This document shows positions 21,168-35,256 of a stretch of DNA of 64,000 bases, piece by piece. The notes below the pieces were generated by a model. The model made no database searches. It saw only the letters and a list, made by a program, of their open reading frames with translations, and was not told the DNA's origin. The position numbers and the translations under genes were made by a program. The stretch spans positions 62,001-126,000 of the forward strand of contig NZ_JAFEUL010000003.1 in assembly GCF_016901225.1 (NCBI RefSeq). The letters are read 5' to 3'. The stretch is from Actibacterium sp. 188UL27-1 (GTDB lineage: Bacteria; Pseudomonadota; Alphaproteobacteria; Rhodobacterales; Rhodobacteraceae). Position 1 is the stretch's first letter, and every line of letters starts with the position of its first letter.

Positions 21168-21869
21168 ATGCTGGATACTGTCCCCGACGCCCTTGGCGAA
21201 GTCCAGCAGTTCCTGGCGCAAGGCGGTCCGGCGATGTGGGTCATTGCGGGCCTCTCCGTGGTCACAGTTGCCTTGATCCTGTGGAAGCTTTGGCGCCTGT
21301 TAATCCTCGGGGCCTGGGCCGGTGCGCGGGCGCGGGATGCTGTGCGGCTGTGGCGATGCGGCGACGGGGATACCGCATTGTCCGCGGTCGACAGGGCGAG
21401 GGATCTTAGGTCGCGCGTCGTACACAGCGCCTTGACCAGCCTTACCAGCACCGCGGTGCCCGAAGACCATATGCGGGAGGAGACGGAGCGGATTGCCCAG
21501 ATCGAGCTAGCCCGCACCCGCAGCGGTCTGCGTGCCCTTGAACTTATCGCGACAATCGCCCCGCTGATTGGCCTGTTAGGAACCGTGCTTGGCATGATCG
21601 AGGCGTTTCAAGCCTTGCAGGACGCAGGATCCCGCGCTGATCCAGCTGCTTTGGCAGGTGGCATATGGGAGGCGCTTTTGACCACAGCGGCAGGAATGGC
21701 CGTGGCAATCCCGGCCTCTGCTGCGCTGACTTGGTTCGAAAGCATTGCCGATCGCGTGCAGGCCGATATTGAAGATCTGGCCACTCAGATCTTTACCGGA
21801 AGGCATCGCGGTCATCCTCCTCAACATGGGGCCACCCCGCCGGCAGCCTTCACCGCGGTGGCTGAGTAA
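21168..21869 (+). CDS. exbB: TonB-system proton channel ExbB (MotA/TolQ/ExbB family)
   Basis: This 233-residue inner-membrane protein has a first membrane segment at about 20-40 (AMWVIAGLSVVTVALILWKLWRL) and a pair at about 125-200. It carries the family signature LELIATIAPLIGLLGTVLGMIEAFQAL and LLTTAAGMAVAIPASAALTWF. It forms the pentameric stator that uses the proton gradient with ExbD to energise TonB. The start at 21168 has GGGGAAGAGG about 7 nt upstream; a frame to 21066 is open but uncharacteristic. First gene of exbB-exbD-exbD-tonB. Confidence 0.93.
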   Translation: MLDTVPDALGEVQQFLAQGGPAMWVIAGLSVVTVALILWKLWRLLILGAWAGARARDAVRLWRCGDGDTALSAVDRARDLRSRVVHSALTSLTSTAVPEDHMREETERIAQIELARTRSGLRALELIATIAPLIGLLGTVLGMIEAFQALQDAGSRADPAALAGGIWEALLTTAAGMAVAIPASAALTWFESIADRVQADIEDLATQIFTGRHRGHPPQHGATPPAAFTAVAE

Positions 21870-22252
21870 TGCTGCGACTTGGTCCACGCAGGCGTGCACG
21901 CCGCCCCAGTTTGACCCCGATGATCGATGTGGTCTTTCTGCTGCTGGTCTTTTTCATGCTGGCCTCCCGCTTTGGCATCGATACCGTGATGCCGCTGAAC
22001 CTGGCTGGATCCCAGGGTGAGCAAAGAAATCAGGGGCCGCCGCGCCTGATTGATGTTTTATCGGACGGTCTACGGCTGAACGGAGTGGCCGTTGCGGAAC
22101 ATGCCCTGGCGGTCCAGCTTGCCCCATTGGTCGAAACGGAAAGCGATCTGATCGTGATACGGGCCGGGGAGGGTGTGGTTCTCCAACGTCTGGTGGAAAC
22201 GATGGCAATGTTGAAAGCGGCGGGCCACGTGTCATTCGTTATGGTGGAGTAA
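21869..22252 (+). CDS. exbD: ExbD-type biopolymer transport protein, canonical copy
   Basis: A 127-residue protein with one N-terminal membrane helix (PSLTPMIDVVFLLLVFFMLAS) and a periplasmic domain. The essential proton-carrying aspartate of the family is present as Asp20 in TPMIDVVF. It overlaps the exbB stop by one base and is followed 4 nt later by a second exbD-like gene. It should pair with ExbB in the TonB motor. Confidence 0.93.
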   Translation: MLRLGPRRRARRPSLTPMIDVVFLLLVFFMLASRFGIDTVMPLNLAGSQGEQRNQGPPRLIDVLSDGLRLNGVAVAEHALAVQLAPLVETESDLIVIRAGEGVVLQRLVETMAMLKAAGHVSFVMVE

Positions 22253-22256
22253 GGCG

Positions 22257-22646
22257 ATGCGATTGCCCACCAGACCCCGCCGGACCCGGCCGGAAAGCAT
22301 CGTTCCGATGATCAATGTCGTATTCTTGTTGCTGATCTTTTTCCTGATGACGGCAGAGATCGCACCACCGGAACCCTTCCCCGTAGCCTTGCCCACGGCG
22401 GAGCAGGAGGAGCGCGCCGAAGGTGATCTGGTGCTCCATATCTCTGCCGGGGGCGAGGTGGCCTTTGGTGAGCATACCGGTGAGGCAGCGATCGCGGCCG
22501 TGAAAGAGGTTGCGATGGTCCAAGAGGGCACACCGCTTGAACTTCGCGCCGATAACCAGGCCAAAGGGGCTGTGATCGCGGCTCTGTTGACCCAGCTGGG
22601 GCAATTGGGCGTGACACGCGTTGCCCTCGTAACGGCGGCACCATGA
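22257..22646 (+). CDS. Second ExbD-type protein, conserved Asp replaced by Asn
   Basis: A 129-residue paralogue of the preceding protein with the same layout: membrane helix ESIVPMINVVFLLLIFFLMTA, then a periplasmic domain ending in LTQLGQLGVTRVALVT. The position of the proton-carrying Asp is Asn20 (codon AAT 22314-22316). A homodimer of this protein should not conduct protons. It may form a heterodimer with the canonical copy in the ExbB pentamer; that is inference. Its stop overlaps the tonB start by 4 nt. Confidence 0.9.
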   Translation: MRLPTRPRRTRPESIVPMINVVFLLLIFFLMTAEIAPPEPFPVALPTAEQEERAEGDLVLHISAGGEVAFGEHTGEAAIAAVKEVAMVQEGTPLELRADNQAKGAVIAALLTQLGQLGVTRVALVTAAP

Positions 22647-23644
22647 AGTTTGCGCGCATCCTCGAATGGGGCGTCTTTGGCGGATTTGCTCTTTTGATCC
22701 ATCTCGCGCTGTTTCTGCAGGTGCCCTCGGGGGCCCAGGGCGACGCAGGTGCCGGAGGTGATAGTGATGTGAGCCTGCAGGCGATGACACCGCATCTGGC
22801 CGCCATGATTGCCAGTGTCGATCTGGCCGATGAGGTCGAAAAACCGAATGCCGTGACAGCGGACAACGTGGCCCAGGTGGCTTCGGTTCAAGCGACACGT
22901 CCATCGGTCGCCCCGGCCAAGGTTGCGTCCCCCCCGGAAGATCAGGCTGTATCCGCTACAACCTCAGTACCGGTGACCCAATCGCTGAACGTGCCGCAAT
23001 CCGTGGGCGTGGCGCCAGTGGCACCCACGATGCAAGCTGCCCCGGCGGCACAACAGGTGGCGCCTGTCGCACCAACTGACCAGGCCCCGCCAGAGGTCGT
23101 GGCGGCCTTGCCCTCTGATCCGGACAGCAGCGCGCTGTCACCTGAAGTGTCGCGCGTACCACCCCCGCGACCTGACCGGCCCAAAGCGGCGCCAGAGCCC
23201 ACGAACCAGGCCGCGGCACGAGATCCGGCACAACGCCCAAGGGCGGCAGAACCGGATAGAAATCAAGCAACCCGATCCCAAAATCAAAGGCAGGCGGCAG
23301 GCCAGGGGAGCGGGGCCAGGGCCGGGGCCGATAGGTCTGGCACGGCCAGCCTTTCCCGGGCAGAGCGGCGGAACCTCATGGCGCAATGGGGCAGCCAGAT
23401 CCGCACGCGCATTGATCGTCGCAAATCGCGCGCCGTTCGCGCGCGTGGATCGGTGACCGTGAACATTGTGGTGGCGGTGAACGGTCAGCTTGCCGGAGTG
23501 TCGGTGGCGCGCAGTTCGGGAGATCGCACCCTTGACCGTGCGGCAATGCAGGCCGTTCAACGGGCCGGGCGTTTCCCAAAGGCGCCATCTGGCATCAGGG
23601 GGCGCAGCCATAGCTTTAACCTTGCGATCCGGTTCGACGGGTAG
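22643..23644 (+). CDS. tonB: TonB-like energy transducer
   Basis: The 333-residue protein has an N-terminal membrane anchor (GVFGGFALLIHLALFLQVP), a long Pro/Ala/Gln/Glu-rich periplasmic spacer (about 40-240), and a C-terminal TonB domain. That domain reads GSVTVNIVVAVNGQLAGVSVARSSGDRTLDRAAMQAVQRAGRFPKAP. It delivers energy to outer-membrane receptors such as the HmuR-like receptor 9.5 kb away. It is the last gene of the operon and faces the DUF1513 gene across 15 nt. Confidence 0.92.
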   Translation: MKFARILEWGVFGGFALLIHLALFLQVPSGAQGDAGAGGDSDVSLQAMTPHLAAMIASVDLADEVEKPNAVTADNVAQVASVQATRPSVAPAKVASPPEDQAVSATTSVPVTQSLNVPQSVGVAPVAPTMQAAPAAQQVAPVAPTDQAPPEVVAALPSDPDSSALSPEVSRVPPPRPDRPKAAPEPTNQAAARDPAQRPRAAEPDRNQATRSQNQRQAAGQGSGARAGADRSGTASLSRAERRNLMAQWGSQIRTRIDRRKSRAVRARGSVTVNIVVAVNGQLAGVSVARSSGDRTLDRAAMQAVQRAGRFPKAPSGIRGRSHSFNLAIRFDG

Positions 23645-23659
23645 CAGCGCGAGATCACG

Positions 23660-24730
23660 TCACCCGGCGATAGCGATCAGATGATTGTCCCACTGCAGAT
23701 CATGTTCGCGTGTCACCCATGTCGTGGCGATCGGAAACAGAACGCGGCCAAGGCCGGTTGTGAAAGCCAGATCATCGGCTGCGGGAGCCACACCACAGAT
23801 GTCCTGTTCAGTGATGGTGTCTTGGAATTGGCCAGAACGGTCAAAAATCAGCGCCAGACCGCCGCGGGGTCCGGTGACGGCAATCCGGCTATTGCGCGAT
23901 ACTGCGATGCTGCCTGCATAGCCCTGCATGCGCCGCTCATAACCATGTCCGGAGGCGCGAAAAGCGAGGGCCGCGCCACCGTCATGGGTGGCAAGTAATG
24001 GTGGCACATCAGACAGATCCCCCTGCCATTGACAGGCGATGGCGACCCGGCCGTCCCCATGCACCGCAAGATGCCGGATTGAGTTCTTGTGCCACTCCAC
24101 CGGTGGTTCGATTTGATCTGCGACCACCCCGTCCAGCGACAGATAGGTCAGATTGGGGCGCATCGTCGGCAGGTTCAACTTCGTACGGCCGGTATCGGGG
24201 TGAGTTTCTATCCCACCGTTGGCCACGACCATCCGCCGGCCATCAGGCATCAGTTTCAGGTCATGGGGGCCGATGCCGCCGCTGGAAAAGGCGGTGAGGC
24301 GGGCATAATCGCCGGTGCGCCAAACGCCAACCATGCCGCGGGCGTTTTCAAAGTCATTCTCCGCGGTGAACAGAAGCCCGCCATCGGCAGAGAAGGTGCC
24401 GTGACCACTGAAATGATGCCCCCCCGGCGCGGTCAGGCGCGCAATGACCGTGCCGGACGTACAGTTGATCACTAGTGCAAACGTACCGGGTCTGCGGGCA
24501 AAGGCGACGGCAACAGCGTGGTATGGATGGGCCGCGGAGGCATGGCCACGGTTGGGCAGAGGGATCTGGAAAAGTGGCGCGCCGTCATTGCTCAAACCGA
24601 ACAAGGCGTATTTGCCCGATGGCAAGCGCGCAGCCGCCAGATAAGCCGGGTTGCCCAAATCCGCCCAACCGCGCGTCGGGCAGAGCCCGGTTGCCAGCAG
24701 ACCGGCAAGAAAGGACCGCCGATCCGCCAT
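23660..24730 (-). CDS. DUF1513 protein, exported, beta-propeller-like
   Basis: A 356-residue protein with a Tat-like leader (MADRRSFLAGLLATGLCP) and repeated propeller-type strands (GHHFSGHGTFSADGGLLFTAEND, GIGPHDLKLMPDGRRMVVANGG). DUF1513 proteins accompany imelysin and di-haem oxidoreductase genes in iron-related loci; function is unknown. The ATG at 24728-24730 overlaps the imelysin stop by one base; a TTG one codon earlier is possible. Last gene of the minus-strand imelysin operon. Confidence 0.88.
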   Translation of the reverse strand: MADRRSFLAGLLATGLCPTRGWADLGNPAYLAAARLPSGKYALFGLSNDGAPLFQIPLPNRGHASAAHPYHAVAVAFARRPGTFALVINCTSGTVIARLTAPGGHHFSGHGTFSADGGLLFTAENDFENARGMVGVWRTGDYARLTAFSSGGIGPHDLKLMPDGRRMVVANGGIETHPDTGRTKLNLPTMRPNLTYLSLDGVVADQIEPPVEWHKNSIRHLAVHGDGRVAIACQWQGDLSDVPPLLATHDGGAALAFRASGHGYERRMQGYAGSIAVSRNSRIAVTGPRGGLALIFDRSGQFQDTITEQDICGVAPAADDLAFTTGLGRVLFPIATTWVTREHDLQWDNHLIAIAG

Positions 24731-25725
24731 CAATCGCCATCCAGTGAGTTAAAGCCCGTCGCGATACCAAGGCGCGGGCCCAGATCCTCCGCGACTTGTT
24801 GACGGATATCGGTGATCGATTGCTGCAAGACCTCGACCCGAAACCGCCCCTCGGGCGTGGCAACCGTGGCCAGAACCGGATCATCCAGCGCGGTGGCGCG
24901 GTTGATAGCGCGCCCAAAGGCCGCGTCCAGATCGGTATCGCCACCTGACAGAGCCGCTGCCAGATCGCGGGTCGCTGTCAGGGACAGCGTCACATGGTGC
25001 AGGGCCCGACCGGAGCGGCGCGCCTCAGCTCGATTCGGGCGCGGTTTGTCAAATGTGCCCATGGGGCGACCCAGTCGCGTCTCAGCGGTAAACTCCAGCC
25101 CGCTCGACAGGGCGGTAAACATCTGGCGCACCGCCTCATCCGGGCTGCGATACGTGTCATTCGATCCGGCGCCTCGCATCAGGTCGGCATAACCGCCCTC
25201 CCAATCGTCCAAGATCGCGGCAGCAGAAGCGGCTATTCCCTGGGTCAATGTTGTAATGAGCGTGCAGCGATATCCGACAGCCTCGTTTTGTTGAAACTGC
25301 GGATCATAAAGCAGGAGTTCGAGCGCATAAAATCCACGCGCCGCGACTGATACGGTTTGAAAGGCTTCGGGCGATCTGACGACCGGATCTTGATCCCGCA
25401 AAAGTGCTGCGAGCGTTTTGGGGGTGGCCCCGCGCGTATCCGGCCAGAAGGCAAGCGCAAAGGCGCGATCATCTTGTTCTGACGGGCCAAACCGCAGGTG
25501 ACTGACCATGATCCAGGCATCGAAAGCAGCGTGATAGGCCGTGTTCAGGTGCGCATTGCCGGGAGTGCAATCGGCCTGGGCGGCGTCCGCCAACCCCGCA
25601 GTCCTAGCTGCGAGCGCCTGATAGCCCGGAAGGATATGGTCATCGACGATCCCTGCGATATCCGGCGTTTCTGCCCAGGCTGGCATTGCGATCATGATCA
25701 GGATGGCGGCTTTCCAACTGCGCAT
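24730..25725 (-). CDS. Imelysin-family periplasmic protein with altered GxHxxE motif
   Basis: A 331-residue exported helical protein (signal MRSWKAAILIMIAMPAWA) with the imelysin/peptidase M75 layout: LNTAYHAAFDAWIMVSHLRFGP early on, then RGFYALELLLYDPQFQ. The diagnostic GxHxxE motif reads GFYALE, so the His is Tyr. The other imelysin in this operon keeps the motif. Imelysins such as EfeM/EfeO and IrpA are linked to iron uptake rather than proven proteolysis. It sits one base after the di-haem oxidoreductase. Confidence 0.87.
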   Translation of the reverse strand: MRSWKAAILIMIAMPAWAETPDIAGIVDDHILPGYQALAARTAGLADAAQADCTPGNAHLNTAYHAAFDAWIMVSHLRFGPSEQDDRAFALAFWPDTRGATPKTLAALLRDQDPVVRSPEAFQTVSVAARGFYALELLLYDPQFQQNEAVGYRCTLITTLTQGIAASAAAILDDWEGGYADLMRGAGSNDTYRSPDEAVRQMFTALSSGLEFTAETRLGRPMGTFDKPRPNRAEARRSGRALHHVTLSLTATRDLAAALSGGDTDLDAAFGRAINRATALDDPVLATVATPEGRFRVEVLQQSITDIRQQVAEDLGPRLGIATGFNSLDGD

Positions 25726-25726
25726 A

Positions 25727-27259
25727 TCAAAGGCTTTCCAGAAAACGGATGAGGGCTGCGCGGTCGTCTGGCGGCATTGCGATCACTGCGTCACGATGGC
25801 TTTGCGCCTCACCTCCGTGCCACAATACAGCCTCCAGAAGCGATCGTGCCCGACCGTCATGCAGAAAATACGTGTGGCCAGAGACCTGTTCGGTCAGGCC
25901 AATTCCCCACAGCGGTGGTGTGCGCCATTCCGTACCGGTTGCCCGCGCCTCGGGCCGATTATCGGCAAGGCCCGGTCCCATGTCATGCAACAGCAGATCG
26001 GTGTAGGGCCAGATCAATTGAAAGCTTTGTTCAGGTTGATCGTGCAGCCGGTGTGTTACAAATGATGGCGTATGGCACGAGGTGCATCCGGTTGTGTGGA
26101 AAACCTCCTTGCCGCGCAAAACAGTTGGATCCGCCAGATCACGGCGCGCGGGCACACCCAGATTGCGGCTGTAGAACGTCACCAGATCAAGGCCTGCGGC
26201 ATCAACTTCGAACCCGCGATCATCCTGATCCCCGTGCGGCGCCTCTCGACACGCACCTTGGTTTGGCATGCATTCCCCCCATGCTGCGGGGAAAAGAGGC
26301 GTCGAAATCCCGATATCACCCGCAAATGCCCCCGCAGATTGCTCCCGAACGGTGGGGGAACCAGCTTTCAGGCCAAACCGGCCCAGCATAGGTTTATCAT
26401 ATTCCGCCGACCACACGATGTTGTGGCGGCCAGAGATGCCATCGCGGTCAGCATCATCGGGGTCCGCCGCAGCAATGATATCAGCCGCCGGTATGGCCTC
26501 CAGCAGGCCAAGGCCGATCATCTGCGGTGCAACGCGCGGGCTGAGCATCGCATCGGGGTGAAGTGGGCCATAACCCAGATCGGTGGCCGCGTAGGTCGGC
26601 TGCCGCAACCGCGCTGTTTCTCCGCCGGATAACAGGATCTCGGTCTCTTCATAGGTGATCCTCAGACGGTACTCCGACGGGTGACCAGCCACACTGAAAT
26701 CCTGAAGCTGCCTGCCATAGTTCGGATCGGGCAGGGTCGCGAGGTAGCCTTTGATCAGAGTATTGGCATCGGCGGCTGTCCCAGGGATCGAGATGCGCAA
26801 AAACATTGAGATGGAGTTGTCATCAAGCCCTTCAGGCGGATGCCCGCGACCGTCCTTGATATGGCAGCGCTGGCAAGAACGGGCGTTGTAAAGCGGGCCC
26901 AGCCCGTCGGATGCGAGGGTCGAGGACGGCGAGGACACCCACAGCTTGCGAAACAGCCCATTGCCGACCTTAAAGGTCAGTTCATCATCAAAGCCTATGT
27001 TTCCAGAAGGCTGGGAAAAGGCATTGGTATCTGACGTCACACGCACTGTCGCCGCCCCTGCGGACAACCCTTCATAGGCTTGTGGCGCGTTGAATGTGGT
27101 CGCCAGGGCGGTAATAGCTGCGATGCGTGCCGCCTCCTGCTCGGTGCGCGGTATGATATTCAGATGTGGCTCGTCCAGCGGATCGGCAGACGCCGTCGTC
27201 GCGACCACCGCTGCCAGGATTGTGAGGCTGCAGCGTTCCATCCGTGTCCTGGGCGTCAT
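25727..27259 (-). CDS. Di-haem oxidoreductase-like protein (COG3488/DUF1111)
   Basis: A 510-residue exported cytochrome-like protein. Two covalent haem sites are visible: CQRCHIKDGRGHPP near residue 130 and CTSCHTPSF near residue 395. GLGLLEAIPAADI and the C-terminal TPPLWGIGLTEQVSGHTYFLHDGRARSLLEAVLWHGGEA are typical of the family. The partner genes are imelysins, and the set may oxidise or process iron species in the periplasm; this is inference from co-occurrence. AGGG lies about 6 nt before the ATG at 27259. Confidence 0.92.
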   Translation of the reverse strand: MTPRTRMERCSLTILAAVVATTASADPLDEPHLNIIPRTEQEAARIAAITALATTFNAPQAYEGLSAGAATVRVTSDTNAFSQPSGNIGFDDELTFKVGNGLFRKLWVSSPSSTLASDGLGPLYNARSCQRCHIKDGRGHPPEGLDDNSISMFLRISIPGTAADANTLIKGYLATLPDPNYGRQLQDFSVAGHPSEYRLRITYEETEILLSGGETARLRQPTYAATDLGYGPLHPDAMLSPRVAPQMIGLGLLEAIPAADIIAAADPDDADRDGISGRHNIVWSAEYDKPMLGRFGLKAGSPTVREQSAGAFAGDIGISTPLFPAAWGECMPNQGACREAPHGDQDDRGFEVDAAGLDLVTFYSRNLGVPARRDLADPTVLRGKEVFHTTGCTSCHTPSFVTHRLHDQPEQSFQLIWPYTDLLLHDMGPGLADNRPEARATGTEWRTPPLWGIGLTEQVSGHTYFLHDGRARSLLEAVLWHGGEAQSHRDAVIAMPPDDRAALIRFLESL

Positions 27260-27339
27260 TTTGACCCTGGTCCTATCTCAACTGATGCTGGCGTGGCGGA
27301 CCCGTCCGGCCCATGGGCTTGGACGGGGCCGGTTGGGGC

Positions 27340-28611
27340 TTACTGGAAGACGGCGCCCGGGTTATCGAGGCTGTCGGACCCTTCGAACGAGATGCTCTCA
27401 ACGCCAAGGGCTGCGACCACACGCTCAATGCTCCGGGTCTGGTCGATCAGGCCGTCCACACCACCCATAATCAGCGCTTCACCAGCCTCGTTGCCACGTT
27501 CCAGCATTTGATCATAGCTGAACCCTGCCTCGGCGGCGGTCTTGATCCGGCCAAGAGCCATCATTGTAGTGGATAGTTTGTCCTGCATCTCGGCATCCAA
27601 CGCGGGATCCGCCGCCACCGTCAGATCAGATAGGGATGGCCCCGAGATCAGCGATCCATCGATCCGGACATAAGCACCAAGATAGACGTTCTGAATGCCC
27701 ATCCCGTCATAGAAGTGACTGTTATGGGTGTTGTCGGAAAAGCAGTCATGCTCTTCTTCGGGATCGTTCAGCATCAGGCCCAACCGCATGCGTTCGCCAG
27801 CCTGTTCGCCGTAAGACAGGGACCCCATGCCGGTGAGGATCGCGGATATCCCGGCATCCTCATCTTTCGCCAGTTCGGTGCGGGCAGCCCCATCTTCGGC
27901 CCACTGTGCCGCCATCCATTCCAGATCGGTGACCAACAGATCTGTCGCCGCCTTCAAATATTCCGCGCGGCGGTCGCAATTGCCGCCTGTGCAGGCATCC
28001 GCTGCGGCATAATCCGTCCATGGGCGGTTTCCGGCACCCGGTCCGTGGCCGTTCAAATCCTGACCCCACAGCAGAAACTCGATGGCGTGGTAACCGGTGG
28101 CAACGTTTGCTTCGATCCCGTCGGCCTCCTGCAGGGTGTCCTCCAACAGTGCCGGGGTGATCTGGCTTGCATCAACCTTGGCCCCCGACAGGGTGAAAGC
28201 GGAGTTGGCAACCACATTCAGCACCGCCAGATCGTTTTCATCGGAAGGGCCGCCATAGGACGCGTCCACATAGTCGATCAGGCCCTCGTCCAGTGGCCAT
28301 GCATTCACCTTACCCTCCCAATCATCAACGATCGGGTTGCCAAAGCGATAAACCTCTGTCTGTTGATAGGGCACACGGGCGGCGAGCCATGCCTCTTTTG
28401 CCGCTTGCAAGGCCTCTGCCGATGGTTCCGCTATCAGTGCATCCACAGCAGATTGCAGCCGCTGCGCTGTGATCAGGCTATCGGTGTATTTGGCGGCAGC
28501 GATGTTGGCGTAAGTATCGAGCACGGCCGCTTTATCGGTCTCCGCTTGCGCAGATGCCACCGACCCCATCCCAAGCGCAATGGCGCTGATGGCAAGAGTG
28601 AATTGTTTCAT
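27340..28611 (-). CDS. Imelysin-family periplasmic protein (IrpA/EfeO-like)
   Basis: A 423-residue protein with a signal peptide (MKQFTLAISAIALGMGSVASAQA) and an intact imelysin motif GYHAIEFLLWGQDLNG. It also shows WLAARVPYQQTEVYRFGNPIVDDWEGKVNAWPLDE and DCFSDNTHNSHFYDGMGIQNVYLG, both characteristic of IrpA-like imelysins. The start at 28611 begins the signal peptide; AGGGA lies about 11 nt upstream, and earlier in-frame ATGs (28620, 28647) are too close to it or unsupported. First gene of the imelysin, oxidoreductase, imelysin, DUF1513 operon. Confidence 0.92.
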   Translation of the reverse strand: MKQFTLAISAIALGMGSVASAQAETDKAAVLDTYANIAAAKYTDSLITAQRLQSAVDALIAEPSAEALQAAKEAWLAARVPYQQTEVYRFGNPIVDDWEGKVNAWPLDEGLIDYVDASYGGPSDENDLAVLNVVANSAFTLSGAKVDASQITPALLEDTLQEADGIEANVATGYHAIEFLLWGQDLNGHGPGAGNRPWTDYAAADACTGGNCDRRAEYLKAATDLLVTDLEWMAAQWAEDGAARTELAKDEDAGISAILTGMGSLSYGEQAGERMRLGLMLNDPEEEHDCFSDNTHNSHFYDGMGIQNVYLGAYVRIDGSLISGPSLSDLTVAADPALDAEMQDKLSTTMMALGRIKTAAEAGFSYDQMLERGNEAGEALIMGGVDGLIDQTRSIERVVAALGVESISFEGSDSLDNPGAVFQ

Positions 28612-28713
28612 AATGATCATTGTCCCTTTTTCCGACGAGGCACGCATGCCTCGTGGTGACCCCCAAGCGTTGGCTGAGCCGGACAGATCGGTTGGCTACG
28701 CGTCCATAAGGTT

Positions 28714-29190: not shown

Positions 29191-29994
29191 TCATGACACG
29201 AGCTTGCGGTGGACGGCAATCGTTGCGGCATGCGGCAGGATATAGGTTTTGCCTGGGGCAGGCGGTGTGTTGACCCGAATATCACATCCATAGGCCCGCG
29301 ACAGCCACGTATCGGTCAGAACGTCGGACACGGTACCATCTGCCAGCACCCTGCCGTTTGATAGGATCGCCACCCGATCCGCGTAAAGCGCAGTCAGGTT
29401 GAGGTCATGCATGATCGCCACGACGCCACCGCCGGATTGTGCATACCGCTGAGCGATGTCCATCACGCCCAACTGGTGCCCGATATCCAGACTGGCGACC
29501 GGTTCATCCAGCAGCAGCCATCGTGGGGTGCCGTCCATTACCGGATCCCAGACCTGTGCCAGAACGCGAGCCAGCTGCACGCGCTGTTGTTCGCCGCCCG
29601 AAAGCTCTTGATAGACCCGATTGACATAGCTGCCCAGGCCGACCCGGTGCAGGGCGTGAAGCGCCACGTCATCCCGGCCACCCGATACACCGCTGTGCAG
29701 GCCAATGCGCACGACCTCGATCACTGTGAAGGGGAAGGCCAGAACGGTCGCCTGTGGAAGGACGGCGCGGATCGTCGCCAGCTCCCATGGTGGGTGATCG
29801 GGCAACGCGCGGTCATTAATTGTGATCTGGCCAGTGTATGCCACATCACCGGTCAAGGCACGCAGCAAGGTCGTCTTGCCCGAGCCATTTGGCCCGACAA
29901 TGGCCGTCAGTTCCCCGGCCTTGGCAGAAAACGTGACATCTGACAGGATTGAACGATGGCCCAGATGCACCGAGATATTGTGTGCCATCAGCAT
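29191..29994 (-). CDS. hmuV: Haem ABC transporter ATP-binding protein
   Basis: A 267-residue ABC ATPase. Walker A is GPNGSGKTTL, the signature motif LSGGEQQRVQLAR, Walker B WLLLDEPVASLD and the switch His in AIMHDLNLTALYADR, matching the FecE/HmuV subfamily. It powers haem import through HmuU. The start immediately follows the hmuU stop (TAAATG). Order hmuS-hmuT-hmuU-hmuV is standard. Confidence 0.95.
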   Translation of the reverse strand: MLMAHNISVHLGHRSILSDVTFSAKAGELTAIVGPNGSGKTTLLRALTGDVAYTGQITINDRALPDHPPWELATIRAVLPQATVLAFPFTVIEVVRIGLHSGVSGGRDDVALHALHRVGLGSYVNRVYQELSGGEQQRVQLARVLAQVWDPVMDGTPRWLLLDEPVASLDIGHQLGVMDIAQRYAQSGGGVVAIMHDLNLTALYADRVAILSNGRVLADGTVSDVLTDTWLSRAYGCDIRVNTPPAPGKTYILPHAATIAVHRKLVS

Positions 29995-31065
29995 TTACAG
30001 ATCCACCAACCCGCGCCGACGCAACAGGATCCACAAAAAAACAGGCGCACCCAAAACCGCTGTCACGATCCCGATGGGCAACTCCGCCGGCGCGATGATC
30101 ACCCGGCTGATCACATCGGCTAACAGCAGAAGGCTTGCCCCCAACAACGCGGCATTGATCAAAAGCATGCGGTGGTCGGGCCCCGTGGCCAGGCGCAACA
30201 GGTGCGGCACGACGATCCCGATGAACCCGATCCCGCCAGAGACGGCAACGGCGGATCCCACGGCAGCGGCAACCGTGAGAATGGCAAGGTTCTTCATCCG
30301 CTGTACGGGGATGCCGATGTGACGGGCCGTTGCCTCCCCCAGGGCCAAACCGTTGAGCCCACCCGCCAGGGTCAGGGCGACCGCGATGGCGACAACGATG
30401 ATCGGGGCAGCAACCGTGACCTTGTCCCAAGTCGCACCCGCAAGGGATCCCAGGCCCCAGAATGTCAGGTCCCGCAATTGGCGGTCATCGGCGATGTAAA
30501 CGAGGATGCCCGACAGGGCCCCGGCCAAGGCAGCCAAGGCGATCCCGGCCAACAGCATGGTGGCGACCGACGTGCGGCCATTCCGGGTGGCCACGCGGTA
30601 TAACACGATCGTGGTGGCCCAACCGCCCAGAAAGGCAGCAACAGGCACAAGCTGGTTGCCCACGGCTTGTGCGATCCACATTGGCAGTGCCGCGCCCAGA
30701 ACGATGGCTGTGATCGCCCCCAATCCGGCCCCGGCGCTCACCCCGATCAAACCTGGATCGGCGAGCGGGTTGCGAAAGAGCCCTTGCAAGACAGCCCCCG
30801 AAACCGCTAAAGCCGCGCCGACGCAGATACCCATCACCAGCCGGGGCGCGCGGATTTCCCACAGAACCACCGATGCGGTTTGCGTCGCTCTGCGTCCCGC
30901 TGCGATATCCCCCAAGGCGCGCCAGAGGGACGTGCCGGAGGCGCCGATGGCCAAGCTGCTGACGCTGACCACGATCAACAGGACCGCTAGGCCAACAGCC
31001 ACGACCCGGGCCCGCTGGCTGCGGTCAATGATCTGGACAGCCCGGGTGTCGGCCAGGACGCTCAT
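29995..31065 (-). CDS. hmuU: Haem ABC transporter permease
   Basis: A 356-residue FecCD-family permease with about nine or ten membrane helices. Family motifs are present: SLWRALGDI, the conserved EIRAPRLVMGICVGAALAVSGAVLQGLFRNPLADPGLIGVSAGAGLGAI stretch, and GGIGFIGIVVPHLLRLATGPDHR that contacts the ATPase. It forms the inner-membrane channel for haem. Its ATG abuts the hmuT stop without a gap. Confidence 0.95.
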   Translation of the reverse strand: MSVLADTRAVQIIDRSQRARVVAVGLAVLLIVVSVSSLAIGASGTSLWRALGDIAAGRRATQTASVVLWEIRAPRLVMGICVGAALAVSGAVLQGLFRNPLADPGLIGVSAGAGLGAITAIVLGAALPMWIAQAVGNQLVPVAAFLGGWATTIVLYRVATRNGRTSVATMLLAGIALAALAGALSGILVYIADDRQLRDLTFWGLGSLAGATWDKVTVAAPIIVVAIAVALTLAGGLNGLALGEATARHIGIPVQRMKNLAILTVAAAVGSAVAVSGGIGFIGIVVPHLLRLATGPDHRMLLINAALLGASLLLLADVISRVIIAPAELPIGIVTAVLGAPVFLWILLRRRGLVDL

Positions 31066-31941
31066 CTAGTCGTGCTCGTAAAGCGCTGTGTTCAGATCTG
31101 TCACTGCGTCGGCTGTACGCGGACCAAAGCCAAGCAGATACAGGCCGTTCATGCGCACGACAGAGCCTGTCGCGGCGGCCGGGGTTGTGGCGATGGCAGG
31201 CATGGCGAACAGATCCGCGTCGCCGGTGCTGTGATCGCCGCGGCGGTCCATCATGAGAATGACATCCGGTGCGGCCAGGCTGATCGCTTCATCTGTCATC
31301 GGCTTGTAGCCCTCGAATGCCGAGACGGCGTTGATCCCACCGGCCATACGGATGATGCCGTCCGCTGCCGTATCGGTGCCCGAGGCGAGAATGCGCCCAC
31401 CCTGGGTGCTGAGGATGAACAGCACGCGCTTGCGTTCAGCCATCGCACTGCGTTCGACCGCTGTATTTAACGCGCTGGCGACCTCGTCGGCCAGCTTCTG
31501 GGCCTCGGGCTCCACATCCAAGGCTTGGCCGACCGCGAGGATTTTATCGACCACGCCGGATGCGCTGTAATCATCCTTGATGGTGATGAACGGGATCGAG
31601 GCGGCCTCCAGCAATTCGATCGTCTCAGGCGGTCCCGCCCCCTCTTCGGACAGGATCAGTTTGGGTGCGACGGATAAGACGCCTTCGGGCGAAAGGGCGC
31701 GCATATAGCCCACATCGGGCAACTGGCTGGCATCCGGGGGATAGGTGGAGGTGGTGTCGCGGGCGATCAGTCGGTGTTGCTGATCCAAGGCATAAACGAT
31801 CTCTGTCACAGAGCCACCGATGGACAGGACATCCGCTTCGTCTTCGGTGGTGTCTGTCGCAGCCCAAAGTGCGGCACTCCACAACGCGGTCAGCAGGGCG
31901 AGCAGGATCAGGCTATAGGAGTTGTCACGGCACCGGGTCAC
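31066..31941 (-). CDS. hmuT: Periplasmic haem-binding protein
   Basis: A 291-residue exported class III solute-binding protein: hydrophobic leader LILLALLTALWSAALWAA, then VLSIGGSVTEIVYALDQQHRLIARDTTSTYPPDASQLPDVGYMRALSPEGVLSV, the HmuT/ChuT pattern. It carries haem from the outer-membrane receptor to HmuUV. The start is GTG (31939-31941), overlapping the hmuS stop as GTGA. It lies between hmuS and hmuU in one operon. Confidence 0.93.
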   Translation of the reverse strand: MTRCRDNSYSLILLALLTALWSAALWAATDTTEDEADVLSIGGSVTEIVYALDQQHRLIARDTTSTYPPDASQLPDVGYMRALSPEGVLSVAPKLILSEEGAGPPETIELLEAASIPFITIKDDYSASGVVDKILAVGQALDVEPEAQKLADEVASALNTAVERSAMAERKRVLFILSTQGGRILASGTDTAADGIIRMAGGINAVSAFEGYKPMTDEAISLAAPDVILMMDRRGDHSTGDADLFAMPAIATTPAAATGSVVRMNGLYLLGFGPRTADAVTDLNTALYEHD

Positions 31942-32984
31942 GCGGCTGGCTCCTGTTGCAAGCTGTCCAGTCCGGCGACGATATCAGACCATGCCGCACG
32001 GCTGTCGCGGCCCTCTTTGCTGATCCCGAAAACCTGGAAAATCAGCATACCCTGCGCATCGAAAGCCTCAACCGACAGAGCCGGTCCGCGCTGGGTGGGT
32101 TTTTCGACGGCCCAAACCTCTGCCACATGATCCTGTCGCAAGTGCAGGCTGAACTGGGCATCCATCACGTTTTGCCACGGCCCCATCGGTTTCAAGGTTT
32201 TGATCGGGCCGGTATGGATCTGGATGCAGCCCTTGTTTCCGACAAAGATCATCACCTCGGTCTCGCGCTCCGCCAGCGCCTCCAGCATCTTGGTGATCGA
32301 TGCCGGGCGCACCGGCGTCACAAAGGGCGCACCGGCGATGCGATAGGCCCCCAGCCGGTTCATTTTCAGCTTTGAGGTCAGACGTAGAAATTGATGGGTA
32401 TCGGTCAGGCGTCCCCATTCCTTGCGCAAGATATCCACTTTGGCCGGATCGGATTTCGCGGCTTCAACAGGTTTACGCGGCACGACATCGATCTGTTGGC
32501 TTTGGTCATTGATCGCGAGGGTCGATTTCAGCCGATCCCAGCTGCCCAAATCAGAGTGGTCACGCAGAAAGATTTTGTGAACTGCATCGCCCGCCGCGTC
32601 GAAGATCTGGATGCTCCGGCGCAGACCGGTCTGCGCCTCCTTTTCGACCATGAAGGCATGAACCCAATGGCTGGGAAAGATCCTTAGGTCGATCTGGTCG
32701 GTCAGGACCATCGCGGCATGTGCGCCGGGATGATAATTGTCATACGTCCCGATCTTTTCGTGAACGCAAGCGGCGTTGCGGGTCAGCGCCATGACCTCCC
32801 CCAGATCATGGGCGGCTTCCATCAGGTCATCGGGGTGAGATACGACGCGCTTCGTGCCCTGGCCCACAAAGGCTGCGACCAGTTGCGCTTCCGTCAGACC
32901 GTGTTGTTCGGCCAGGTCACGGTCCCGCATCTTGGGGTTTTTCATGCAAAGCTCGCGGATTTCGCCGGGTGTCAAATCAGCCAT
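31938..32984 (-). CDS. hmuS: Haemin-degrading/haem-trafficking factor HmuS
   Basis: A 348-residue cytoplasmic protein with the two tandem HemS/ChuX domains of the family: LGEVMALTRNAACVHEKIGTYDNYHPGAHAAMVL in the first and MIFVGNKGCIQIHTGPIKTLKPMGPWQNVMD in the second. Members bind incoming haem and pass it on or degrade it. First gene of the minus-strand haem operon. The 202-nt region 32985-33186 separates it from divergent hmuR and should carry both promoters. Confidence 0.95.
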   Translation of the reverse strand: MADLTPGEIRELCMKNPKMRDRDLAEQHGLTEAQLVAAFVGQGTKRVVSHPDDLMEAAHDLGEVMALTRNAACVHEKIGTYDNYHPGAHAAMVLTDQIDLRIFPSHWVHAFMVEKEAQTGLRRSIQIFDAAGDAVHKIFLRDHSDLGSWDRLKSTLAINDQSQQIDVVPRKPVEAAKSDPAKVDILRKEWGRLTDTHQFLRLTSKLKMNRLGAYRIAGAPFVTPVRPASITKMLEALAERETEVMIFVGNKGCIQIHTGPIKTLKPMGPWQNVMDAQFSLHLRQDHVAEVWAVEKPTQRGPALSVEAFDAQGMLIFQVFGISKEGRDSRAAWSDIVAGLDSLQQEPAA

Positions 32985-33186: not shown

Positions 33187-35256
33187 ATGGATATTTCGGA
33201 CAGGCGCGCTGCGCACAGTCTATTGGCGACCATTTTGATCATGCTTGTTGGCCCGGCGGCCCGGGCGCAAGATCAGGACGGCTTTGACCTGGGGACCATC
33301 ACCATTGGTGAAAGTAAGCGCGAGGTGCAGACCGACACCGCCGCCGCCGTCACGGAAGTCGATCAAGAGGAGATCAACGACCGGCAGGCCGGCACTGTGG
33401 CAGAACTGATCGACTCTGTGCCCGGTGTAAATCTGGTGAACGGGTCAACACCCCAGGGATCGGGTATCAATATCCGCGGTTTCGGGGCCAACAGTACCTT
33501 TGGCACGGATCAGAAGGTGGGAATTGTTGTCGACGGTGCCTTGGTCGGATCCGAAGAGATCTACCGCATCGGGACCCAGCTTTTCACGGACCCGGAATTG
33601 TTCAGATCTGTCCGCGTGTTCCGTGGCACGATCGGCACCTTTGAATACGGCTCAGGCATTATCGGCGGTCTGGTCGAACTGGAAACCAAGGACGCCTCCG
33701 ATTTCACGGACCGAGAGATTGGTTTCCGATTTCGCCAATCCCTGCAATTTGGCAGCAATGGTGACGGCATCACAAGCTCCAGCATTTTTGCCTGGCAGCC
33801 CACGGATGATTTTGAGGTGCTGGGTCAGTTCGTGTGGCGAGAGCAGGACCTTCAAACCGACGGCGCCGGGAATACCATTGGCAACAGCGATTTCCAGCTT
33901 CCCTCTGGCATGGTCAAGGGGACCTACACGTTCGGCACCAATGGGGATCAACGCCTCACCTTCAAATATAGCGAGACAACGGCAAGCGACCGCGATGTTC
34001 AATATGACACCTTCCTGACGACCGATGCGGTCTTTGGAAATGTTGATCGTGACACGGATTCACGTACTGCGGTGCTGCGCTACCAATTCAATCCGGCCGA
34101 CAATGACATGGTCGATCTGGATGTGACCCTGTCCTACGCAGATCAGAGCATCGACCAAGAATACGTGTCCGGCAGTTCGATTTGCGATCGGCCGACCAAT
34201 CCCTGTGGTCTGACCGGTGGTTTTCCGGTGGGCGGGTTTCCAGTGGTGAACGCCGATCAGCAATATGAGACAACCAAGCTCACGGTCCGCAACACCAGCC
34301 TTTTCGCCACGGGGGCGGTAAATCACGAATTGCGGATGGGCGTTGAGTTCATTCGGCGTGAACGGTTGAACGCGGACTCTGCTCCTGGCGGGATCGACAA
34401 TCGCTGGGCGCTGTTTGCCGTCAATGACATGCGCATTGGCGAGGATTGGACGATCACCCCTGCCCTACGCTACGAAAGCTCGCAGATCGAAGGGTCGACA
34501 TCGCCCAATGACGGCACGTTTGACAATGACGCGGTCATGGGTGGTCTGTCTGTTCGATATGCGTTTGGCAATGGCTTTGCCCTCTTTGGAAGTGCGGCCT
34601 ACACCGAAAGCCTGCCGATCATCGATGACCTGGGCAATGCCACCCTGATGACCCAAAGTGAAAAGGCGAGGACACTGGAATTTGGCGGCTCCTACGAGGG
34701 TCAGGATGTGTTCCGCAGCGGCGATACGTTTGCAATCAAGGCTAACATCTACAACACGCGCATCTGGGATGTGACCTCTTACACGGTACCGGGCAATCAA
34801 CAGATCACGGGCGTACCCGCCTCGGTCTATCCCGAGGATATCGAAACCCGCGGGATCGAGCTTGAGGCCTCCTATGCCATGCAGAGCGGATTTTACGTTG
34901 ACCTGAACGCAAACGTGACGCGTGGTACGGAACAGCGGTTGAATGGCAGCACTGCGGATTGGCGCAATATTCCGGCGGATGGGCTGCAATTGACCCTCGG
35001 CCGCCGCTTTGGCGAGGCACTGGACCTAAGCTGGGAGATGGTCGCCGATCAACGCATGACGCGGACCACTGACCCAAGCGCTGGTTTTGCCGTCCATAAC
35101 CTGCGCGCCACCTATCAGCCGCAAGCAGGTGTGTTGGAGGGGTCGGAACTGCGGATTGGCGTCGAAAACCTTTTTGACCGCGAGTATACCCGCCACCTGT
35201 CAACCCGCCCAGCGCCGGGCCGCAACATCAAGGTGACCCTGGCCCGCACCTTTTAA
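33187..35256 (+). CDS. hmuR: TonB-dependent outer-membrane receptor, haem type
   Basis: A 689-residue receptor: signal peptide ending ARA; an N-terminal TonB-contact region; a plug domain (AAVTEVDQEEINDRQAGTVAELIDSVPGVNLVNGS, INIRGFGANSTFG, then VEYGSG-like FEYGSGIIGGLVELETKD); a 22-strand barrel; and a terminal Phe. Gene context (hmuSTUV, tonB) points to haem. The FRAP/NPNL motif used to recognise many haem receptors is not evident: the equivalent region reads AAYTESLPIIDDLGNATL. Haem specificity is thus inferred from position. GAGGG lies 6 nt upstream of the start. Confidence 0.88.
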   Translation: MDISDRRAAHSLLATILIMLVGPAARAQDQDGFDLGTITIGESKREVQTDTAAAVTEVDQEEINDRQAGTVAELIDSVPGVNLVNGSTPQGSGINIRGFGANSTFGTDQKVGIVVDGALVGSEEIYRIGTQLFTDPELFRSVRVFRGTIGTFEYGSGIIGGLVELETKDASDFTDREIGFRFRQSLQFGSNGDGITSSSIFAWQPTDDFEVLGQFVWREQDLQTDGAGNTIGNSDFQLPSGMVKGTYTFGTNGDQRLTFKYSETTASDRDVQYDTFLTTDAVFGNVDRDTDSRTAVLRYQFNPADNDMVDLDVTLSYADQSIDQEYVSGSSICDRPTNPCGLTGGFPVGGFPVVNADQQYETTKLTVRNTSLFATGAVNHELRMGVEFIRRERLNADSAPGGIDNRWALFAVNDMRIGEDWTITPALRYESSQIEGSTSPNDGTFDNDAVMGGLSVRYAFGNGFALFGSAAYTESLPIIDDLGNATLMTQSEKARTLEFGGSYEGQDVFRSGDTFAIKANIYNTRIWDVTSYTVPGNQQITGVPASVYPEDIETRGIELEASYAMQSGFYVDLNANVTRGTEQRLNGSTADWRNIPADGLQLTLGRRFGEALDLSWEMVADQRMTRTTDPSAGFAVHNLRATYQPQAGVLEGSELRIGVENLFDREYTRHLSTRPAPGRNIKVTLARTF

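Follow-up and report, generated by a model that had tools for sequence, protein, structure and literature searches.

A conserved Asp/Asn pair of ExbD proteins beside TonB in Actibacterium and related bacteria: a candidate Ton motor with a single proton site

Rotary models of MotB and ExbD have been described as all moving 36 degrees per proton, with a channel that alternates between two essential Asp residues (PMC12215075). How, then, might a Ton motor work if one of its two ExbD subunits carries Asn at the place of that Asp? The question is raised by a locus in the window (the whole stretch of 64 000 nt that was analysed, from contig NZ_JAFEUL010000003.1 of Actibacterium sp. 188UL27-1), where exbB-exbD1-exbD2-tonB occupy positions 21168-23644, all on the plus strand, with neighbouring genes separated by no more than a few bases or overlapping by as little. 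The features are as follows:

21168..21869, plus strand: exbB, 233 aa, the pentamer subunit (PF01618, MotA_ExbB, 106.1 bits)
21869..22252, plus strand: exbD1, 127 aa, with Asp20 encoded by GAT at 21926-21928; reads PSLTPMIDVVFLLLVFF (PF02472, 57.7 bits)
22257..22646, plus strand: exbD2, 129 aa, with Asn20 encoded by AAT at 22314-22316; reads ESIVPMINVVFLLLIFF (PF02472, 71.4 bits)
22643..23644, plus strand: tonB, 333 aa, overlapping exbD2 by 4 bases (TonB_2, 45.1 bits; TonB_C, 43.5 bits)

Reading of the ORFs and codons bore out exactly the coordinates and residue numbers given in the first-pass annotation, which had placed Asp20 in ExbD1 and Asn20 in ExbD2. Both proteins pass the Pfam cut-off for ExbD (PF02472, 25.4 bits), share 31 % identity over the matched stretch and are encoded in one cluster with exbB and tonB, as is expected of a Ton motor. 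When aligned with solved ExbD chains, residue 20 of each falls in the column of the helix Asp, which we take to be Asp25 in the common E. coli numbering; in an alignment to solved ExbB and TolQ, Thr139 and Thr173 of the window's ExbB correspond to Thr148 and Thr181 of E. coli ExbB. The latter are proton-path residues in E. coli (PMC8599685). Neither ExbD protein reaches the cut-off of the ExbD equivalog TIGR02803 (152.95 bits), with scores of 33.6 bits for ExbD1 and 24.9 bits for ExbD2, and ExbD2 likewise stays under that of the TolR equivalog TIGR02801 (45.1 bits; cut-off 127.3). Since Asn20 stands in the column where the membrane Asp is expected, ExbD2 is, by sequence, a homologue from a non-acidic branch rather than a standard ExbD.

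In its predicted model ExbD2 (mean pLDDT 86.4; 85.5 for the model of ExbD1) has the family's single N-terminal membrane helix, at residues 17-32, and its ExbD/TolR periplasmic domain. With Foldseek, the periplasmic part matched both ExbD and TolR structures, the best match being the ExbD periplasmic domain 8pek (E-value 1.3e-04). The linker that follows the helix is proline-rich (PPEP, residues 37-40), and among 30 aligned proteins Pro40 and Pro46 were invariant in ExbD2 and lacking from ExbD1; Thr16, kept in 30/30 ExbD1 proteins, is mostly Val in ExbD2 (27/30). From this fold, and from the two prolines that set its linker apart from that of ExbD1, it could be argued that ExbD2 is mainly a periplasmic partner that binds TonB or peptidoglycan, with a helix that only packs and an Asp that was free to go. 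We regard this as very improbable, as conservation is much higher in the helix than in the periplasmic part (mean modal-residue frequency of 0.98 over residues 17-31 versus 0.50 over residues 50-125 in the 30 proteins), and the site is fixed on Asn and does not drift. Asn stands in the residue-20 column of 30/30 aligned ExbD2 proteins.

In order to sample homologues without selection on residue 20, we searched 198 genomes of the family with ExbD2 as query. This gave 79 places at E-values up to 1.1e-9, a cut of our own choosing and with the window's genome excluded, all of which were fetched and read. Residue 20 was Asn at 73 of these places and Asp at six. Both genes could be read as an Asp/Asn pair at 71 places, whilst Asp/Asp pairs were found at the six (L257, L269, L270, L280, L285 and L292); at a further one, L238, the gene with Asn is present and its partner is cut by the contig end. 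These unselected places, together with the 30/30 aligned proteins, led us to reject a local mutation, chance or a sequencing error as the origin of Asn20, and the counter-case named in the first-pass annotation, that most homologues might have Asp at residue 20, is not what the close members of the family display. At L268, the remaining one of the 79 places and in a three-contig assembly, the second exbD keeps its Asn helix and has a frameshift in the periplasmic part, which is either a natural knockout or an assembly error.

Below this cut, Asp in the second gene becomes commoner, and ten hand-chosen places just beneath it comprised five Asp/Asn pairs, four Asp/Asp pairs and one single Asp gene. 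Furthermore, of the 198 family genomes, 17 contained a match to a pattern that combines Asp in the second gene with Phe at +4, and all 17 places, when read, proved to be tandem Asp/Asp genes. Second genes with Asp do exist, mostly as one separate subfamily, and as some lineages possess them Asn is not universally required. L323:8949-10553 and L271-L287 belong to this tandem subfamily, whose second genes have Phe at +4. A cytochrome P450 gene and one for a DUF4384 protein are found near the L323 pair, no match to the TonB of the window was seen in that stretch, and the pair perhaps serves another force transducer.

Among 80 named loci, which were partly selected by the motif PMINVVFL, Asn was present in 80/80 and an Asp partner was visible in 78; in the remaining two (L073 and L079) the match lies close to the contig start. 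Genera represented include Phaeobacter, Ruegeria, Roseovarius, Shimia, Leisingera and Sulfitobacter. One record, L108 (JAHVJD010000004.1), is titled Nocardioides marinus, an actinobacterium by name, and contains a roseobacter-like exb operon; it is probably mislabelled or contaminated. A search of the class, with a profile built from Asn proteins, added 29 loci outside the family, from 19 families, with Asn in 29/29 and an Asp partner detected by profile in 27. L145 starts close to the match and its partner was not visible by profile; in L135 the partner is present and frame-shifted. In L135 the ORF of the Asn gene takes in the beginning of the Asp gene as well, and we considered an exbD fusion there; however, the end of the Asp gene runs on in another frame and the assembly is fragmented, making an indel the likelier explanation. 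Nineteen hand-chosen lower-scoring regions yielded seven Asp/Asn pairs, three Asp/Asp pairs and nine single Asp genes. Across 398 genomes of the phylum an Asn pattern matched 26, and a backward control matched none. Twenty-nine of the 30 loci fetched were Asp/Asn pairs, including four (L202-L205) whose genomes fall into three families of other classes; the pattern match L206 contained no ExbD by profile, and one further place was left unfetched. Nothing was found in L230, a region taken without a prior match.

Over all fetched loci, and with pairs treated as duplicates when the last 50 residues of both proteins agreed, there were 253 distinct tandem pairs: 230 Asp/Asn, 22 Asp/Asp and one Asp/Ser, counts that lean towards Asn through partly selected sampling (PMINVVFL in one pattern set, the Asn pattern in another) and that include 17 Asp/Asp loci selected for Asp and Phe. 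The Asp/Asn pairs divide into 143 of PMIN type, 29 of IALIN type, ten of the type found on contig C3 of the window's own genome (described below) and 48 others. An order with Asn first occurred in none of the 253 pairs, and the estimated median gap between the two genes was ∼4 nt (229 pairs, taking the start of the Asn gene as 19 codons before Asn). In the ExbB proteins of the Asp/Asn loci, the matches of Thr148 and Thr181 were Thr in 225/225 distinct sequences (188, 10 and 27 by type). The match of Glu176, at ExbB position 168, is Glu in 151 of the 188 general Asp/Asn loci and Val in 26 of the 27 of the haem-linked IALIN type.

Where the second gene lacks Asp, the residue was Asn in 230 pairs and Ser in one, even though the codons AAC and AAT need only one A-to-G transition to yield Asp (the window has 60 % GC). 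This is not a random set of residues, and we count it in favour of the one-site motor set out below. Moreover, Asn was accompanied by Leu at +4 in 230/230 second genes, and Asp by Phe at +4 in 20/22, most of which had been fetched by the pattern that requires Phe; the other two (L222 and L229) have Ile. Both the near-exclusive choice of Asn and its fixed neighbour could also be read as signs that Asn20 takes part in ion passage, as a link in a relay hydrogen-bonded to water and to the ExbB threonines; each subunit would then work in its own way. Against this, Asn cannot carry a carboxylate proton, and in E. coli the ExbD D25N protein is described as inactive (PMC11658791); we judge a relay improbable.

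The history of the Asn genes was approached with two trees. For the first, 101 rows were sampled and residue 20 was masked, taking 12/133, 7/11, 8/24 and 14/51 pairs of four types and all six Asp/Asp pairs then known. It grouped 41 Asn second genes with four Asp ones (SH-aLRT 98) and set them apart from the first genes, the single genes and two further second genes, those of L222 and L229. The second tree covered 68 second and eight first genes, masked at residues 20 and 24, and requires three or more changes between Asn and Asp; an arrangement that keeps the Asn rows together, as under a single origin of Asn, was not rejected (p-AU 0.091). Support at its root branch is weak (85/72), both trees are limited by the small number of columns, and the single Ser row is in neither. 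Repeated reversion to Asp with Phe at +4 is suggestive only, as most of these rows came from the pattern that requires Phe and the trees are weakly resolved. A fresh duplicate or pseudogene was also considered for ExbD2 and rejected, given the 31 % identity to ExbD1, the separate placement of second genes in the masked tree (bar L222 and L229) and the highly conserved helix.

The organism's own genome bears on which TonB this motor might drive. PF02472 was found at five places, namely the window pair, a second pair on contig C3 and a single Asp gene with a TolR-like motif on contig C52. The pair on C3 (L006:4725-6259) repeats the arrangement, with Asp in its first gene (TPLADVMF) and Asn at the matching column of its second (LAQVNIVL), and it has its own exbB and a sequence very unlike that of the window pair. 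ORFs beside it resemble a phosphatase and a protein kinase when read by eye, and the 512-aa protein that follows has no PF03544 match. PF01618 likewise occurs at five places, three of them beside PF02472 places, and there are three plug-domain receptors (PF07715). The genome's one match to PF03544 is the TonB of the window. Judged from this gene content, the Asp/Asn motor therefore probably powers the TonB-dependent uptake of the organism, barring a substitute in the form of TolQR or of a TonB-like protein from another family.

Candidate clients lie further along the window:

29191..32984, minus strand: hmuV, hmuU, hmuT and hmuS, haem ABC transporter and HemS-type genes (Pfam ABC_tran, FecCD, Peripla_BP_2 and HemS)
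33187..35256, plus strand: TonB-dependent receptor, hmuR-like by place, divergent from the hmu genes and one of the genome's three plug-domain receptors

The hmu names are those that we take to apply, after the cited papers or common usage. The haem ABC transporter genes are a likely client system. Between them and the exb operon, at 23660-28647 and on the strand opposite to exb, lie genes for DUF1513, imelysin, a DHOR di-haem oxidoreductase and a second imelysin. Among the 80 named loci, however, proteins matching the window's HmuR/HmuS were present at 12, as against 56 with matches to its ABC permease or ATPase (HmuU/HmuV). The first-pass annotation had proposed growth on haem as the test of the two genes, a setting that these counts show to be too narrow; an exclusive role in haem uptake was rejected for the same reason, and the PMIN type accompanies iron ABC transporters in general. 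It is the IALIN type that is haem-linked, with HmuS in six of eight fetched stretches of 17-18 kb. On plasmid pP88_b of Phaeobacter inhibens, a receptor, a hypothetical gene, exbB, exbD, exbD and tonB adjoin haem transporter genes, and the pair is Asp/Asn. Roseobacter plasmids that carry exbB-exbD-exbD-tonB include L334 (NZ_CP010727.1), L312 and L313; one such plasmid, of Phaeobacter inhibens, is typed as conjugative.

For expression, the nearest published case is that of Ruegeria TM1040, a genetically tractable strain whose TonB-dependent receptor is its only one, where a ten-gene haem cluster is co-transcribed on each strand, all of its genes rise ∼41- to 201-fold under iron stress, hmuR is required for growth on haem, and exbD1a, named as a duplicate of exbD1, belongs to the co-transcribed haem clusters (PMC5225302). 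That the second gene might not be expressed, the other counter-case of the first-pass annotation, is thereby answered in part: exbD1a, in this one system, is expressed and responds to iron. On whether a second gene is dispensable, no published data were found among the papers listed. In its kinds of genes (hmuR, exbB, exbD1, exbD1a, tonB and a hypothetical), the TM1040 cluster matches the Asp/Asn locus of Phaeobacter inhibens P88, the pair of which is of IALIN type where that of the window is of PMIN type. The available text of the TM1040 paper calls exbD1a a duplicate and does not mention the residue (PMC5225302).

What kind of motor do these genes then specify? In the E. coli ExbBD structure the computed channel reaches one Asp25 (PMC9022066), and in MotB the D22N substitution is treated as a mimic of protonation and changes the structures very little (PMC9389320). 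Together with the conserved Asp/Asn pairs, this makes a one-site ExbD1-ExbD2 dimer in each ExbB pentamer the simplest reading, and we consider it rather probable, on sequence evidence, that exbB-exbD1-exbD2-tonB encode a heteromeric ExbB5-ExbD1-ExbD2 Ton motor with one proton site, in which Asn is a fixed mimic of protonated Asp. Five ExbB subunits would surround one helix of ExbD1 and one of ExbD2. Protons arriving through the periplasmic channel next to the ExbB threonines would be taken up by Asp20 of ExbD1, which would drive the power stroke, whilst Asn20 of ExbD2 would occupy the second site as a neutral, hydrogen-bonding residue. Such a motor would turn, in relative rotation, through 72 degrees rather than 36 for each proton, using half the protons per turn, and its two periplasmic domains would be free to specialise for different tasks. 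We infer the heterodimer, the role as mimic and the step size from the features observed, and an obligate heterodimer with one working site would fit the pairing of the genes, their fixed order and tight spacing, the intact ExbB threonines and the single TonB.

Dimers of ExbD1 with itself and of ExbD2 with itself may arise instead. A mixed pool can be imagined in which proton transport is left to ExbD1 homodimers, and in which homodimers of ExbD2, or mixed dimers, compete for ExbB and thereby tune or idle some of the motors, Asn20 being kept as an idle, non-leaking motor is useful; the small structural effect of MotB D22N implies that an Asn dimer could assemble (PMC9389320). We think this unlikely, for a fixed pair that never has Asn first, is spaced by ∼4 nt and recurs in several divergent types suits an obligate pair better, and the linker and helix of ExbD2 show a conserved pattern of their own. 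Other observations also weigh against the one-site heterodimer, namely the two-Asp alternation at 36 degrees per proton assumed in published models (PMC12215075), the second-gene Asp at 6/79 close places, at 4/10 of the weaker hand-chosen ones and, by pattern, in 17/198 genomes, and the possibility that TolQR or a TonB-like protein outside PF03544 might stand in. The inactivity and lost crosslink of E. coli ExbD D25N (PMC11658791) count on this side too; by analogy they would fit a need for ExbD1, yet they warn that Asn may not be harmless in every setting.

Known systems share parts of this arrangement. The 5:2 ExbB-ExbD-TonB motor of E. coli and Serratia has the same three families, neighbours, ExbB threonines and ExbD/TolR periplasmic fold as the window; in contrast, it contains two identical ExbD proteins with Asp25, where the window has two different proteins, one with Asn. 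No entry with two different ExbD or TolR chains was present in the lists of solved chains. Genes of Xanthomonas called exbD1 and exbD2 recur among the papers listed. In Sphingobium SYK-6, tonB1-exbB1-exbD1-exbD2 similarly combines one exbB, two exbD and an adjacent tonB, but according to its authors Asp25 is conserved in ExbD1, ExbD2 and ExbD3/TolR (PMC8599685). The AglRQS gliding motor of Myxococcus comparably has one MotA-like and two MotB-like subunits, for which heterodimer formation is stated to be unknown; unlike in the window, both MotB-like subunits are predicted to carry the conserved Asp (PMC9389320). Among the titles and abstract openings of the matches listed, we found no description of a conserved Asn-bearing ExbD in the open-licence literature.

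The window thus contains what may be a natural one-Asp motor beside the genome's single PF03544 TonB, which makes the assumption of two-Asp alternation directly testable in marine laboratory bacteria. The pair, kept in many related bacteria, can be used to ask whether both axle proteins must bind protons, and in a motor with two distinguishable axle subunits, which homodimeric motors lack. We would give an even chance to the broader proposal that a whole branch of 5:2 motors, of at least four sequence types and from Alphaproteobacteria and some other Pseudomonadota, are obligate heterodimers with a single proton-binding site, in which alternation between two Asp residues would be unnecessary and the protonation mimic would be fixed in one half of the axle.
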